A stretch of 37,811 nucleotides of DNA from a virus, in IMG/VR virus record IMGVR_UViG_3300044730_000471, positions 1 through 37,811 of that record; one strand, given 5' to 3'. Below are positions 4,247 to 24,107 of this stretch, in pieces. Each line of letters starts with the position of its first letter. The stretch's first letter is position 1. The notes under the pieces were generated by a model. It did not search any database. It was not told the DNA's origin and saw only the letters and a program-made list of their open reading frames with translations. The translations under genes and the position numbers were made by a program.

Positions 4247-4336
4247 TCATTCTGTTACAAGATTATCTAATCCATTTTGCGTCAATAGGTCTTCATCGGC
4301 TTGCGATAATAAACCTACCGACGCTATGACGGGTTT
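4247..4336 (-). other. Programmed -1 frameshift signal and 27-codon extension of the major capsid gene
   Basis: The last sense codons of the capsid gene are GTA AAC CCG TCA TAG. A AAC CCG (4336-4330) is a textbook X XXY YYZ slippery heptamer. Five bases later a 12-bp stem begins: GCGTCGGTAGGT (4324-4313) pairs with ACCTATTGACGC (4290-4279), using two G-U pairs, around a 22-nt loop with a smaller 4-bp helix. After a -1 slip, translation continues at GTC (4330) for 27 codons to TGA at 4249-4247. The extension begins VIASVGLLSQADEDLL and ends LDNLVTE. It has no usable start codon of its own. The arrangement parallels T7 gene 10A/10B. Confidence 0.8.
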
Positions 4337-5373
4337 ACAATCTCAATACAGTTTACGTAATTTACGCCTGCGTATTTGTCGCCAGCTTCGTAAATATCGT
4401 CAGGCAATGTTACTAATTTGCCTGTGTGAGTTAATACGATTGACAAATTACCGCAATCGTCCTTCATGGTTAAATCAACTGGCAATCCAGCAGGGGTGAA
4501 GGCAATTGTTTTGCTGTAATTGCTACCCGCTACTGGAGTAATACCCGCGTTCCATTCTGCCATATTGAACGATAACCATTGCATCGCGCCCGCAGTCGTA
4601 GCTAAGTTCTTTAGCTGTGAACCTTGTGCGGCTGCCAAACGTGCGTCGTAAGCGAAGCCGAAACCGTTTTGCTGCGAAATCGCTAACAAGTCGATGCCGA
4701 ACTGAGTGCAGCAACCAGCCTGCACCGCATTAGCATAACGCTGCATCTCAGCGCCACCAAATACCACAGGCGCGCCCGGATAGTTAGCCATGCGTGTAGC
4801 TTGTAGAATATCTGCCAAAGCAAACTCGTTCAATGCTTGACCGCCTGTTTGACGTGTAGCAACGCGTAAACAATCACCGCTAACGGTGTAGTAACCGCTA
4901 ACTTCAGTACCCCATTTGCCGATAGCGGCAACGGCTTGAGTAGCGGCGGCACTTGCTACTTTTCTATCCATTACGTCCATTAAACGCATGATAGACTCGA
5001 GAACGTAACGGCTGTTTTCTTGACAATGACGGGCGATAGCATCAGCCTCAATCAATTGTTCAGCAATGTACGTGTCGGTCGTTTCAAGCGTGTACGTAGT
5101 GGTGCTATCACCGTAATTGTTAGTAGCCGTACAAGTAAGGATATTACCACCTTCTTCTACTTCCGTTTCGGGTAATCGCTGAATCCAACGAGCCTCAACC
5201 GTCTTTAGCTTACCGCGTCCCGGTGAAACCTCTTGACGAATTAATTTTACGTTTTCAGGGGAATTAAGAAATTCGAGAAAGGGCAACTGTTCGCGCTGAC
5301 CTACTTCGATAAAAAGCTCCGAAAGGCTCATTTGCACATTCGGGCATTCGGATAAAATGCGAGAAATTGACAT
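4324..5373 (-). CDS. Major capsid protein
   Basis: This 349-residue protein is assigned as major capsid from its place after portal, MuF-like protein and scaffold, its size, and its mixed alpha/beta composition with alanine-rich helices (about residues 135-160, 185-215, 235-265), as expected of HK97-fold subunits. The N terminus is probably not a processed delta domain, because a separate scaffold gene exists and no protease gene is visible. The 3' end carries a canonical -1 frameshift signal that would yield a minor 375-residue form. No clear promoter was found in 5374-5476; the nearest TTTG-containing element (5419-5426) lacks the TA. It is followed by a strong terminator, which sets it apart as its own transcript end. 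Confidence 0.82.
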   Translation of the reverse strand: MSISRILSECPNVQMSLSELFIEVGQREQLPFLEFLNSPENVKLIRQEVSPGRGKLKTVEARWIQRLPETEVEEGGNILTCTATNNYGDSTTTYTLETTDTYIAEQLIEADAIARHCQENSRYVLESIMRLMDVMDRKVASAAATQAVAAIGKWGTEVSGYYTVSGDCLRVATRQTGGQALNEFALADILQATRMANYPGAPVVFGGAEMQRYANAVQAGCCTQFGIDLLAISQQNGFGFAYDARLAAAQGSQLKNLATTAGAMQWLSFNMAEWNAGITPVAGSNYSKTIAFTPAGLPVDLTMKDDCGNLSIVLTHTGKLVTLPDDIYEAGDKYAGVNYVNCIEIVNPS

Positions 5374-5476
5374 TTTGTTTTTAGGTTTAAGAGTTTACGT
5401 TTGCACTTAAAAAGGCGGCAAACATTCACGCCTAAAAATAATTTGTCATTTGAGCGCCGTAAATTTACGAATTGTT

Positions 5477-5506
5477 TTTGTAATTAAAAAAGTCGTTTTA
5501 TATTTG
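5477..5506 (+). promoter_or_regulatory. Plus-strand promoter for the small RNA
   Basis: TTTG (5477-5480), an 18-nt spacer and TATATTTG (5499-5506) match the Bacteroidota primary sigma consensus TTTG-N17-19-TAnnTTTG fully. Predicted start is near 5511-5513, where the first hairpin of the small RNA begins. Confidence 0.82.
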
Positions 5507-5510
5507 CTCT

Positions 5511-5608
5511 CGAAACATTCTTGCGGCTGTTTCGTAAAGGCAAAAAATTAGAACCTAACCGTTCAAATTAGTCCCCGAGATAACCGCAAGTATCTTCGGG
5601 GTTTTTTT
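5511..5608 (+). ncRNA. Small RNA with kissing-loop architecture (RNA1)
   Basis: A consensus promoter lies just upstream and an intrinsic terminator ends the unit, giving a transcript of about 95 nt without an evident ORF. The 5' hairpin is CGAAAC (5511-5516) with GTTTCG (5529-5534). A small GAAC/GTTC hairpin lies at 5551-5564. The terminator hairpin is 5573-5582 with 5591-5601 (one bulged T) followed by seven T. The 5' loop holds CTTGCGG (5520-5526), perfectly complementary to CCGCAAG (5584-5590) in the terminator loop, directly next to the 3' stem strand. A loop-loop pseudoknot is therefore likely. The same layout recurs in RNA2 at 28331-28450. It could be a free RNA or a leader attenuator for the plus-strand block. 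Confidence 0.72.
5573..5608 (+). terminator. Intrinsic terminator of RNA1
   Basis: CCCCGAGATA (5573-5582) pairs with TATCTTCGGGG (5591-5601) with a single bulge, an 8-nt loop and a T7 tract. The loop sequence pairs with the 5' hairpin loop of the same RNA. Confidence 0.85.
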
Positions 5609-5629
5609 ATTCCCTAAAAATAAAATTGA

Positions 5630-5892
5630 GTTCGGTCGGGATAAACTACGGCTGCGAACTTGTAAAAAGTGTTACAGTGGGTATTAGTACCAGCACAGCG
5701 GTGATGCAAAGGAGTGAGCCGCACTACTAATCGGGCTACCGTATGGCTCGTAAAATAGACTCCAACCTAATAAGGCACGGCGACCTGTTAGGCACAGCGT
5801 TCGAAGGATGGCTCCGAAAAGCTATACGAGCGTAACTGTGAAAGGCGTAAAGCGATTAAAAACCGCTTTGGGCTAATCATGCTTTCACAGTT
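5630..5892 (+). ncRNA. Multi-helix structured region upstream of GIY-YIG gene, family unknown
   Basis: This noncoding stretch holds many nested complementarities: GTTCG/CGAAC (5630-5634 with 5655-5659), ATTAGTA/TACTAAT (5683-5689 with 5725-5731) enclosing GCGG/CCGC, GCTCGTA/TACGAGC (5746-5752 with 5825-5831) enclosing a CCTAA/TTAGG hairpin (5766-5792) and a TTCG/CGAA hairpin (5800-5818), and an 11-bp perfect stem AACTGTGAAAG/CTTTCACAGTT (5834-5844 with 5882-5892) enclosing AAAGCG/CGCTTT. Such density suggests a folded RNA or ribozyme. The GIY-YIG gene follows 55 nt later on the same strand, as in mobile introns. I could not map group I P7/S elements, a group II domain V, or tRNA, tmRNA or RNase P features. 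Strand is inferred from the neighbouring gene. Confidence 0.55.
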
Positions 5893-5947
5893 TCTCAGGA
5901 TTCACCAAAAAGCTATACATACTCTTATAAGTTTATTATAATATACT

Positions 5948-6343
5948 ATGGGCTACAAAAAAAATAAAACAAAAAAAAGAGCTTCAACAAAATCTAATAG
6001 GTTAAAGAATTACAACGATGTAAAAGGGTACACAAAAAAAGCTGAGTACCGAACAAAAAAACAATATCACGTTTACGTTTTAGAATGTGAAAACAACGCT
6101 TTCTATGTTGGCATAGCCTTAGATATTGAAAAGCGTTTTGAACAGCATTTAGGCGGCAATGGTGCGAAGTTTACAAAAGAAAACTACCCGACTAAAATTA
6201 TTGAAACAATGCCAACGCATACAATCGAAATAGGGTTGGCTTGTGTATTTGAAAATTACAAAGTTTGTGAGTATAGACGAAAGTACCCAAACCATAAAAT
6301 AGGCGGTGGCTCACGTAAATTAAGTACCGATAGATATAAATAA
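5948..6343 (+). CDS. GIY-YIG homing-type endonuclease
   Basis: This 131-residue protein is the only clear plus-strand gene. A lysine/arginine-rich N terminus (1-38) precedes a GIY-YIG nuclease core: HVYVLECENNAFYVGIALD (about 40-58) supplies the two beta strands with YVY and YVG, and the expected arginine follows in EKRFEQH. A conserved-looking Glu sits in FENYKVCEYRR. It lacks a recognisable separate DNA-binding domain, and the basic N terminus may serve. It sits behind a structured RNA region on the strand opposite to the capsid and scaffold transcripts, which marks the 5.48-6.34 kb block as an insertion. Free-standing or intron-derived homing is the likely role. Confidence 0.82.
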   Translation: MGYKKNKTKKRASTKSNRLKNYNDVKGYTKKAEYRTKKQYHVYVLECENNAFYVGIALDIEKRFEQHLGGNGAKFTKENYPTKIIETMPTHTIEIGLACVFENYKVCEYRRKYPNHKIGGGSRKLSTDRYK

Positions 6344-6368
6344 AAAAAGCCTACTTGTTAGGTAGGCT
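6342..6368 (-). terminator. Intrinsic terminator of the 68-aa gene
   Basis: On the minus strand AGCCTAC (6368-6362 complement) pairs with GTAGGCT over a 7-nt loop, followed by seven T at 6348-6342. It ends the minus transcript of 6393-6599 and lies just beyond the stop of the convergent GIY-YIG gene. Confidence 0.85.
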
Positions 6369-6392
6369 CGGGTGGTTAGGTTAATTTAAAAC

Positions 6393-6599
6393 CTATATCG
6401 AGTATTTATCTTGATGCCAATAAAAACAGTAATCAAAAACAATTGTTTCTACGCTTTCGTTTTCATATTGAAACATACTCATTGCTGTTTCAATTTCGAT
6501 TAACAAGTTAGCCGTTCCGTATGCAGGGCATACAAGCGTTAACACTTTGCACTTAAATTGCTCTACGTTGTTTTCGGTTATTAGGTTTGATGCGTTCAT
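6393..6599 (-). CDS. Small accessory protein (68 aa) in a promoter-terminator cassette
   Basis: I start this gene at 6599 (MNASNLITENN). A longer reading to 6638 would run into the promoter at 6628-6658, and the same promoter-leader precedes three other genes with ATG at the equivalent place. The product is acidic and contains cysteines and aromatic residues toward its C terminus (FDYCFYWHQDKYSI). No family recognised. It has its own promoter and terminator and sits between the scaffold and capsid transcripts, so it looks like a moron-type accessory gene. Confidence 0.75.
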   Translation of the reverse strand: MNASNLITENNVEQFKCKVLTLVCPAYGTANLLIEIETAMSMFQYENESVETIVFDYCFYWHQDKYSI

Positions 6600-6627
6600 G
6601 GTGTGAATGTTTAAATGTTTAACTCTG

Positions 6628-21865: not shown

Positions 21866-23178
21866 AGGTATCTTTTAAGTATTGCGTTTACAAAGTAACG
21901 AAAACAATCTAAAAAGTCGGCACGCTCAGAAATGTTTTTTCGATTGCTCTTTATTATTTGCCCTTCAGCGTTGCATTGCACTTGCTTAGCATCAAAAACA
22001 AAGCCCTTACAATTTTTACTATTAACGCGTATATCGAGTTTCTTTAGCGCGGTATTGCAATCAATACGGCTGTTAACGTGGCGCGGGTTTGCTGGTATTA
22101 TAATTTGGTTATCGGCTAACTTGAGGCGGCGTTTAATCTGAATGTAAGCGCTCGAGTTATCGCGCTCCTGTATTGTACCGCCTTTGCCCATTGCGTCGCC
22201 CGTTATGCGTATTAAGCCCGTTGGTATGTTCAATGCTTCGACCGCATCGCAGAACGCGTCTATCGAACCGCGCTCTATCTTTATTTCATCCACTACGGTA
22301 GCCGTGCTTCCAACGTTTTGAATAATCAAAGCGCATAACGGGTTAATATTGAAATCGACGCTTATAAACGTCGGTAAGTGCGCGTTGTGCGTTACACTAT
22401 CATCGATGTGCTTTTCGTCGCTCCAAGCGTATAGGAACGGGTTAGCAACGTCATCGAGTACATCCCAATCACCCTCGACAAATCGAGCGTATTGAATAGG
22501 TGGTAATTCCTTTAGCGCTTCGAGGTATTCAGGCGCGATGTGTGGGTTATCAGTTATACGGCTCGGTATGTAAGCCCAACGTTCGGGTAATGTGTTTTCG
22601 CGGTAACGGTTGTATATAATCGACTTAACCCAGTTTTGAGCAGGGTTGCACGTTGCGAGGCAAACGATAGGCGGCTTGCCGTGTGCCTTATTCCATGAGC
22701 CTATACGTTCCTGAACTTTGTAGAATGTTACTTCCTGTAATTCGTTTACTTCATCTAAGCCCGCGCCGTTAATCTCTAAACCTCGAAAGCGGTTAAGGTC
22801 TTTATCGTCGTCGAAACTTTCTGCCATAAACATAAGCTCCGAACCGTTTGTAAATGTTATAACGTTTGTTTCCCTATTCCAGTTCTTAACATAACTACTT
22901 ACGCCGTCCATCATTATCGAGGCAAAGCTCGGGAACGTGGTACGCTTTAAGTCGGGTAGGCTTTTACGAATAACCGCCCATCGGCTGCGCGGGTATGTTA
23001 AACAAAGCGATGTTAGTGTTAAAAGTAACCAATACGTTTTCCCGCCGCGAATCTTTGCCCCCACCCTTTCGAGCAGGGGCGGTTATCGTATAGCGCCCCC
23101 GAAGACAATTACTCTTTTGTCCCCGTTGGTCGCCATATCGAAGGCTGTTGTTTGTGTTTCAGTTAGCGTAAATTGCAT
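21862..23178 (-). CDS. terL: Terminase large subunit, interrupted in the Walker A codons
   Basis: The gene starts at 23178 (MQFTLTETQTTAF) and reads to DKRVIVFGGAIR, beta strand 1 plus the first half of the P-loop. It then meets TAA (23085-23083). The same frame resumes GGKTYWLL at 23046 and runs to 21862 with Walker B AGLDEVNE, nuclease motif ISVDFNINP, RITGDAMG and DFLDCFRYF. Removing 39 nt joins GGAIR to GGKT, a perfect GxxxxGKT, in a 425-residue protein of normal length. A GTG at 23064 could only start a 400-residue form that lacks the P-loop strand and the first P-loop glycine. I expect translational bypassing, or else a defective gene or a sequence error. Confidence 0.85.
23047..23088 (-). 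other. Candidate translational bypass element in terL
   Basis: Take-off codon CGA (23088-23086) is followed by TAA, then CCGCCC (23082-23077) pairing with GGGTGG (23066-23061) in a hairpin right after the stop. The landing codon would be CGC (23049-23047), readable by the same arginine tRNA if its anticodon is ICG, and decoding resumes at GGC. The gap is 39 nt counting the landing codon. The element lies in the most conserved codons of the gene, beside a homing endonuclease gene. T4 gene 60 has the same parts: matched codons, stop in a hairpin, linked endonuclease mobA. Confidence 0.65.
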
Positions 23179-23683
23179 ATCCTTTATTTAGCCTCTTTAC
23201 TGATGAAATAGAACAGTTATATAAATCGGCTATTATTTGGTTTTTAACGCCTTCAGATTTTAGTTTTACAATTGCCTCAATACTTTCTTTAGTTTGCTTA
23301 CAACGGCTGCTTTCGTGTAGGCGCTTTGGCTTTGATAGCCCGTTTTCATATGCGTGCTTTACGTTTTCTGAATTATTAACCCACTCTAAATTATTTATGG
23401 CGTTATTCAACTTATTGCCGTCTTTATGGTTTACTTGAGGTTTATTATTAACGTTTTCAATGAACGCCATAGCAACAAGCCTATGTACTTTTAAAGTACT
23501 TAGTTTACCATTAATCATTATCGCTACACGCTTATAACCTTTCTTATCGATAGCTGGTTTCAATAGTTTGCCTTTTAATTTTAAAGGCTGCTTTCGCGTT
23601 TCTACTATCCTATCAATACTGCGAACGTTTCCTAAATTAGAAACCTCGTATCCGCTTTCAAATACTTTCCAAATTTCAATCAT
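23159..23683 (-). CDS. HNH homing endonuclease (NUMOD4-HNH)
   Basis: I start at MIEIWKVFESGYEVSNLGNV (23683), which overlaps the terminase small subunit stop by 8 nt. The 174-residue protein has an N-terminal NUMOD4 domain (about 1-45), an HNH core (HRLVAMAFIENV, then QVNHKDGNKLNN and NNLEWVNNSEN, about 75-115) and a C-terminal helix-turn-helix (about 135-170, with IIADLYNCSISSVKRL). It sits between the two terminase genes and overlaps terL by 20 nt. This is a free-standing homing endonuclease whose probable target is the conserved P-loop region of intron-less or bypass-less terL alleles. Confidence 0.88.
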   Translation of the reverse strand: MIEIWKVFESGYEVSNLGNVRSIDRIVETRKQPLKLKGKLLKPAIDKKGYKRVAIMINGKLSTLKVHRLVAMAFIENVNNKPQVNHKDGNKLNNAINNLEWVNNSENVKHAYENGLSKPKRLHESSRCKQTKESIEAIVKLKSEGVKNQIIADLYNCSISSVKRLNKGYAIYAN

Positions 23684-24107
23684 TCTTTTCTTTTGTTTCG
23701 GTTCGCACAATAACAAGCGGCTCGGTGGTGGTAATGGTATTTTCTCCATTATTGCTCCAGCGCCCGCGCTGCCTATTTGCTAACCAATGTTTCGCCGCCG
23801 CCGTATCAGAGGGTAGCTGCTTGCGTAGCTTTACTACTTCACCGTCCTTTGTTACCGCCTCTTCGACTATCGTTACACCTAATGCACGTTCGTACATCGA
23901 GCGCGCTACTTTAGCGTCCGCGTCCTCTTTTCCGCGTGTTAATGACTCTAAAAATGTGGGTTGGGCGCGTTTCCAATTATTAAACGTCGCCTCACATATA
24001 TCGAACGCCGCTGCCATTTGTACATCGTTAAGCCCGAGCAAAGCAAGATTAAACGCTCGTTCGTCGTATTCGGGTTTATAGTCGGTTGGTCTACCTAATT
24101 TTTTCAT
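23676..24107 (-). CDS. terS: Terminase small subunit
   Basis: This 143-residue protein begins with a helix-turn-helix: RPTDYKPEYDERAFNLALLG, then NDVQMAAAFDICEATFNNW (about 27-45), as in small terminases that bind the packaging site. A helical oligomerisation part follows, with KEDADAKVARSMYERALG, and a C-terminal tail contacting TerL. It overlaps the 47-residue gene as ATGA and precedes the homing endonuclease and terL. Confidence 0.88.
   Translation of the reverse strand: MKKLGRPTDYKPEYDERAFNLALLGLNDVQMAAAFDICEATFNNWKRAQPTFLESLTRGKEDADAKVARSMYERALGVTIVEEAVTKDGEVVKLRKQLPSDTAAAKHWLANRQRGRWSNNGENTITTTEPLVIVRTETKEKND

Follow-up and report, generated by a model that had tools for sequence, protein, structure and literature searches.

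A terminator-bearing small RNA module with a conserved loop-loop pairing precedes large structured RNAs in a group of uncultivated phages

Introduction

We know of no account of what turns on the large structured RNAs of phages. The question is raised by a plus-strand cassette in the window analysed here, a virus record of 37.8 kb (IMGVR_UViG_3300044730_000471, 37,811 nucleotides) whose genes lie nearly all on the minus strand and code, among others, for a portal, a terminase, DnaB, a DNA methylase and a lysozyme. Between the minus-strand gene 4324-5373 and the next block, the cassette presents in order a promoter, a small RNA (RNA1), a large structured RNA of type A and a GIY-YIG gene (Table 1). 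The gene 4324-5373 is probably the major capsid gene as judged by its position; a family search with its product gave no match. An initial annotation had described at this place a promoter-driven RNA whose two hairpin loops are perfectly complementary, and had offered as its role a regulatory RNA, an antitoxin-like RNA or a leader for the region downstream. The reading preferred here, to which we give a probability of roughly 0.5, is that RNA1 is a terminator-bearing leader, in other words a transcription attenuator, for the downstream large structured RNA and accessory gene.

Table 1. Features of the RNA1 cassette, in positions of the window.
Feature	Position	Strand	Description
Promoter, Bacteroidota sigma-A-type	5477..5506	+	TTTG 5477-5480, 18 nt spacer, TATATTTG 5499-5506
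RNA1, about 98 nt	5511..5608	+	predicted start to end of U-run
Hairpin H1	5511..5534	+	7 bp, CGAAACA 5511-5517 / TGTTTCG 5528-5534, 10-nt loop
Loop sequence L1, CTTGCGG, in H1 loop	5520..5526	+	complement of L3
Middle hairpin H2	5546..5569	+	folding of window copy and relatives
Terminator hairpin H3	5573..5601	+	CCCCGAGATA 5573-5582 / TATCTTCGGGG 5591-5601, one bulged U
Loop sequence L3, CCGCAAG, in the 8-nt H3 loop ACCGCAAG	5584..5590	+	complement of L1
T7 run of terminator	5602..5608	+	sequence
Alternative rod, antiterminator-like	5514..5596	+	inverted repeat 5514-5534 with 5576-5596, 21 nt, 76% complementary
Type A large structured RNA, probable unit under RNA1 control	5609..5945	+	3' limit approximate
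GIY-YIG gene, accessory gene of the cassette	5948..6343	+	PF01541, E 1.1e-9

Results

Promoter and architecture of RNA1

The full promoter reported in the initial annotation was recovered as the boxes TTTG and TATATTTG, which, 18 nt apart, fit the Bacteroidota promoter consensus in the accessible text of PMC7366714. Sites of the form TTTG-N17-19-TAnnTTTG occur eight times in the window for 0.87 expected, and none of 100 shuffles reached this number. In Flavobacterium the -7 box covers -12 to -5 (PMC9723704, accessible part), and this spacing places the predicted +1 at 5511, where H1 begins. Counted from there to the end of the U-run, the RNA would measure about 98 nt and not 95 nt as first given. 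Since its 5' end lies inside H1, no room is left for a leader peptide. No conserved ligand pocket was seen in RNA1.

The 5' hairpin CGAAAC/GTTTCG carrying CTTGCGG was confirmed as H1, with a stem of seven pairs, and the intrinsic terminator with CCGCAAG in its loop corresponds to H3 followed by the T7 run. As in an attenuator, an own promoter and an intrinsic terminator are thus both found in the sequence ahead of the putative controlled unit. The complementarity between L1 and L3 is exact over 7 nt, and the complementing stretch takes up nearly the whole terminator loop: 7 of its 8 nt in the window and all 6 in the relatives L016, L018 and L140. The middle hairpin, a competing rod fold and a parallel module on the other strand had escaped the initial annotation. 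The structure of RNA1 is well supported; its function we infer.

Matching of the loop pairs among relatives

Relatives were gathered via the GIY-YIG protein, the capsid-adjacent protein and DNA patterns. RNA1 was detected in 16 complete contigs, window included; L019, in which it is cut by the contig end, was left uncounted. These contigs reduce to ten distinct RNA1 (window, L002, L003, L016, L018, L020, L034, L070, L128 and L140), that of L070 being identical in L076 and L077. Eight variants of loop 1 are represented (CTTGCGG, CTTGCGC, CTTGCAG, GTGCCG, GTGCAG, GTGCCT, CGGGCGG and CGAGCGG), the terminator loop carrying the exact reverse complement in every case, and the match is perfect in 10/10 distinct copies. 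When the eight loop pairs were re-paired, only the true pairing, one of 40,320, attained the observed sum. In the all-against-all comparison of loops 1 and 3, cognate pairs were the best and most non-cognate ones were clearly shorter. For the window alone, shuffling the terminator-loop region gave a 7-nt run in 147 of 20,000 trials. As background, 330 sequences supplied 381 terminator-like hairpins with perfect stems. This set, from which RNA1 with its bulged terminator falls out by the demand for a perfect stem, yielded no loop-loop run of at least 6 with an upstream hairpin and five runs of 5, three of which are modules of the type C described below.

The RNA1 model, run on 27 whole virus records, gave five matches, one copy each, all in the capsid-adjacent slot and all in carriers previously found. 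Among named phages, blastn with the RNA1 region and searches with type A and with the capsid-adjacent protein returned no match, and plasmids returned a single short one at chance level. The promoter followed by CGAAAC was met in 113 stretches of bacterial genomes which, by eye, are tRNA leaders or gene starts and in no case RNA1. The RNA1 model hit 0/296 and the Rfam model RF02932 0/198 bacterial genomes, counts that say little as both searches ran without positive control. Three contigs outside the group with a loose type A motif (L136-L138) resemble coding DNA by eye.

No Rfam family matched RNA1 at the gathering threshold in the window or in 10 relatives, and at a relaxed threshold just weak matches far under the cut-offs, regarded as noise, were obtained over RNA1. 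This agrees with the initial statement that the family was not recognised; as a small RNA module, RNA1 is new and belongs to a single uncultivated phage group. The antitoxin-like RNA found no support, neither a toxin ORF nor an antisense partner being seen around RNA1 and the Rfam matches being noise. A 6S-like RNA was considered, equally without support. ANTAR antiterminators consist of two small stem-loops with hexaloops in which A1 and G4 are fixed; the H1 loop is longer and the loops differ between copies, so RNA1 was not retained as such a two-hairpin antiterminator.

Covariation of hairpins and rod

The covariation alignment comprised the seven copies with 7-nt loops, L016, L018 and L140 being left out on account of their 6-nt loops, one pair shorter. 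In the kissing structure, formed by the hairpins and the loop-loop helix, 95.8% of the cells are paired and eight pairs are changed on both sides. These double compensatory changes affect 4/7 loop-loop pairs and 4/10 pairs of the terminator stem, and the two helices covary separately. None of 500 shuffles matched the covariation score, and a shift of the partner by 1-3 columns abolished it. The H1 stem shows no double change, one of its positions being mismatched in 3/7 copies. The test suggested with the initial annotation, compensatory loop change in relatives, thus came out in its favour, with eight perfect loop pairs and four of seven loop-loop pairs doubly changed; as expected of a kissing loop, the complementarity is kept by compensation and both stems are retained.

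For the rod, 91.4% of the cells are paired in the same seven copies and five pairs are doubly changed, four of them being the loop pairs. The helices private to the rod are broken in several copies and contain one double change, versus four in the terminator stem. The upper terminator stem reads GAUA/UAUC in the window and ACUA/UAGU in L002, its self-pairing being kept in both, whereas the outer rod arm is paired in L002 and unpaired in the window. That the rod is the single selected fold was not accepted as the only reading, since covariation is lacking in the pairs private to it. As far as the aligned sequences can tell, evolution speaks most clearly for hairpins and loop pairing, more so than for the rod in types A and B. 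The rod in A/B is possible according to the folding model and draws no independent support from covariation.

Folding energies

In the window copy, nested folding at minimum energy gives a rod in place of the two hairpins, and this rod uses the same loop pairing. For full-length RNA1, the rod was the minimum-energy fold in 10/10 A/B copies; its lead over three separate hairpins was 2 to 10 kcal/mol in a hairpin model that omits the loop-loop (kissing) energy. With the raw loop-duplex energy added, before any penalty, the hairpins would be favoured in 10/10 A/B copies. With a transcript ending at L3, the minimum-energy fold contained the L1-L3 pairing and the inner rod in 10/10 A/B copies (-17.0 to -22.9 kcal/mol), H1 and H2 alone summing to about -8 to -13 kcal/mol. 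As long as the last terminator arm is absent, the loop-paired fold was favoured in 19/19 modules computed (10 A/B and 9 C). Permutation shows no clear advantage of the A/B rod arms: in the 8/10 copies tested, equally good rods arose in 11 (L018, the best) to 123 (L034) of 300 permutations, and in 68 for the window.

Position of RNA1 before large structured RNAs

Among 80 capsid-adjacent loci, 70 were informative, with at least 420 nt upstream. RNA1 occupies 13/70, in each case directly before a large RNA (six of type A, seven of type B), and 0/57 of the others. Type C occurs at 9/70 by pattern; 48 loci have none, or 47 if L082, type C by eye, is counted. The loose type C pattern also flagged L076 and L077, both of which were counted as type A. 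Contigs found by the type A motif carry RNA1 in 6/6 cases and those found by the type B motif in 5/5, and neither type was ever seen without it. The same RNA1 stands before type B in L070 but before type A in L076 and L077. By this distribution RNA1 behaves as an exchangeable and separable 5' module, and the occupancy pattern of the capsid-adjacent slot indicates that the cassette is dispensable and exchangeable.

The large structured RNA begins immediately after the terminator U-run, without gap. Types A and B are conserved structured RNAs in which some helices covary. Type A of L077 aligned end to end with Betaproteobacteria-1 (RF02932), positions 1-120 (38.3 bits, E 9e-6); both this score and that of the window (28.5 bits) are below the family cut-off of 49.4. 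Type A shares the GUCGGGAUAAACUACGGC 5' hairpin with Betaproteobacteria-1 and with HOLDH (RF02997), and stays below the gathering score of the latter (319.4). By these scores type A RNA is a distant relative of Betaproteobacteria-1. Type B, of about 300 nt and unlike type A, follows RNA1 in L016, L018, L020, L034, L070, L128 and L140; no credible Rfam match was obtained for that of L128. By eye, no separate promoter was seen for the large RNAs, and a candidate promoter within the terminator was discarded as not conserved.

The accessory gene varies between GIY-YIG, Mom family, a short basic ORF or none. Behind type A, L076 has a GIY-YIG-like ORF, assigned by resemblance, and L077 has in the place of GIY-YIG a Mom-family DNA-modification gene (PF25680, E 6e-25); L070 has a small basic ORF. 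Of the roles first suggested, a leader for the structured region and the GIY-YIG gene is the best-fitting one, given the strict tie to the large RNA; the gene is no constant partner.

A second build of the module on the opposite strand

Type C large RNA lies on the opposite strand of the capsid-adjacent slot in L017, L022, L024, L029, L030, L032, L043, L044, L082 and L086. It has a promoter-hairpin-terminator module of its own, which, read along that strand, opens with TATATTTG and, after 4 nt, a hairpin AGATAG-loop-CTATC(T); a middle hairpin comes next, and the terminator is TAAATAG-loop-CTATTTA-GGGGC-T5-6. The two loops, for example TTAGGGG with ACCCCCTAC or TGAGGG with ACCCCTCA, are complementary over 5-6 nt in 10/10 copies (L024, L030 and L032 parsed, L082 by eye). 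They are G-runs facing C-runs that cross-pair almost equally; with the observed sum attained in 372 of 5,040 permutations, the covariation is not significant. With a transcript reaching the end of loop 3, loop pairing and the rod were predicted in 9/9 modules computed (-14.4 to -19.9 versus about -10 to -12 kcal/mol), and at full length the terminator was kept in the minimum-energy fold in 9/9. According to these models, the default state at full length may differ between A/B (rod, 10/10) and C (terminator, 9/9). Type C arms suit the rod better than permuted ones in 8/9 modules (0-3 of 300; L030, 52 of 300), a result nearer to one observation than to nine, as the modules are close relatives. 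The arms differ in sequence from those of A/B, and two origins come into question for the type C module, old homology or independent invention.

Discussion

Promoter, terminator hairpin, conserved loop pairing and fixed position before the large RNA all emerge from the comparison of the sequences. A termination switch is suggested by the strict place before the large RNA, the kept terminator and the kept loop pairing, together with a competing fold, known from computation, that would abolish the terminator; termination, read-through and their regulation are what we infer from them, and the effect of the loops on termination proposed in the initial annotation stands as a possibility. In such a switch, RNA polymerase would start at 5511 and H1 would fold at once. 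L3 would emerge ahead of the last terminator arm and could pair with the exposed H1 loop. Either the terminator arm would then close, H1 and H3 kissing through the loop-loop helix, and an RNA1 of about 98 nt would be released, or the contact would spread, the 5' arm of the terminator invading H1 to give the rod, with GGGG-U7 left unpaired and the polymerase reading on. The loop pairing would be the toehold that sets the read-through fraction; should the terminator close first, the loop contact would become a clasp on the finished short RNA.

The same observations can be read otherwise. A plain small RNA, one form of the regulatory RNA mentioned in the initial annotation, remains a rival, though a less probable one: the loop-loop helix would close a fully terminated stand-alone RNA into a compact nuclease-resistant shape, and read-through would be incidental. 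The own promoter and strong terminator, the covariation of terminator stem and loop-loop helix but not of rod-only pairs, and a terminator loop that is almost exactly the complementary segment are all in agreement with it. It leaves unexplained why RNA1 is found exclusively directly before A/B (13/13 loci; 6/6 and 5/5 contigs) and why type C has a similar module, and the failure to see a separate large-RNA promoter by eye argues against it. This strict linkage, with U7 abutting the large RNA, would follow naturally if RNA1 were the 5' domain of one large RNA, its U-run serving as linker or weak terminator and the loop pairing or the rod preventing constant stopping, and the rod as minimum-energy fold in 10/10 A/B copies points the same way. 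That a 5' domain would keep its terminator stem and U-run through compensatory change is, however, not expected, and the joining of one RNA1 to two unrelated large RNAs (L070 versus L076/L077) speaks for a separable module, which makes this reading improbable.

The pairing could also act between molecules, the released RNA pairing via L1 or L3 with nascent copies and altering their termination, with the loop as key for feedback or co-infection recognition. Eight loop pairs in ten copies, most non-cognate ones shorter, are as expected under diversification for specificity, and precedents for short and long RNAs are given by IsrK and P4 CI RNA (accessible text of PMC4825925) and by pT181 (that of PMC3753616). 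An ever-present internal partner would however out-compete a second molecule, the divergence of the loops may be neutral compensatory drift, and lysogenic immunity is unlikely, since no integrase was found among the proteins scanned; we consider this action in trans unlikely. Equally doubtful is its fuller form, a phage-specific RNA lock in which the loop pair is the lineage's own and the released RNA, pairing with either nascent loop, sets read-through into the large RNA. If true, it would be a self-contained one-transcript attenuator that doubles as a device for feedback, or for recognising a co-infecting phage, and that occurs in two builds (A/B, and C on the opposite strand) ahead of three large RNAs. 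Finally, the matching might be a by-product at the DNA level, template switching at the imperfect inverted repeat 5514-5534 / 5576-5596 keeping its copies alike. A repeat of 21 nt with 76% complementarity is indeed present; perfect matching nevertheless ends at the loops, the adjoining arms staying mismatched between copies, and the covariation of the terminator stem is internal to it, which renders this origin very improbable.

Closest to the attenuator reading in their logic are pT181 attenuation, P4 CI RNA and IsrK. In the accessible text of PMC3753616, pT181-type attenuation has likewise a 5' hairpin with an antiterminator sequence before the terminator and a first contact between kissing hairpins, but there a second, antisense RNA supplies the partner of the loop, whereas RNA1 has both loops in one transcript. 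No minus-strand TTTG-N17-19-TAnnTTTG site was found from 5500 to 6600, a pattern that weaker antisense promoters could escape. The satellite phage P4 employs a processed antisense RNA, and its system controls lysogeny. P4 CI RNA, with its seqA-seqC immunity, resembles RNA1 in being a phage leader where premature termination is governed by complementary segments within the leader (PMC4825925, accessible text); RNA1 differs in that its complementarity joins two hairpin loops and that the proteins scanned included no integrase. IsrK of Gifsy-1, covered in the same text, is again a phage locus with one promoter giving a short terminated RNA and a read-through with a downstream element, but it acts on orf45/anrP translation, and no conserved internal loop-loop pairing is described there. 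The one-transcript loop-loop layout is thus absent from the descriptions of pT181, IsrK and P4 CI RNA in the accessible parts of both papers. Nor did we recognise, in the kissing-loop and terminator literature covered, mostly papers open without subscription, a terminator loop tied by covariation to a hairpin loop further upstream in the same RNA. The module is small, is strictly linked to three large RNAs on their 5' side and exists in two builds; it leads to a testable proposal, namely that matching loops set read-through, and eight natural matching loop pairs are available for testing it.

Additional observations

The leader of the capsid-adjacent gene (5371-5475, minus strand) contains a TAGGC...GCCT element, seen by eye also in many relatives; a common fold for this leader was unsupported by RNAalifold. 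Close to the terminase gene, a NUMOD4/HNH homing-type endonuclease is encoded at 23159-23749 on the minus strand. In L077, an upstream in-line start of the Mom-family ORF could serve only with a frameshift at a run of A10. The 3' hairpin of type A is flanked by a direct repeat, CCGAAAAGCTATAC at 5814-5827 and CCAAAAAGCTATAC at 5905-5918, both copies of which become GCTATTA together in L076 and L077. Type B has a GAAT/GGAT repeat which also changes in concert.
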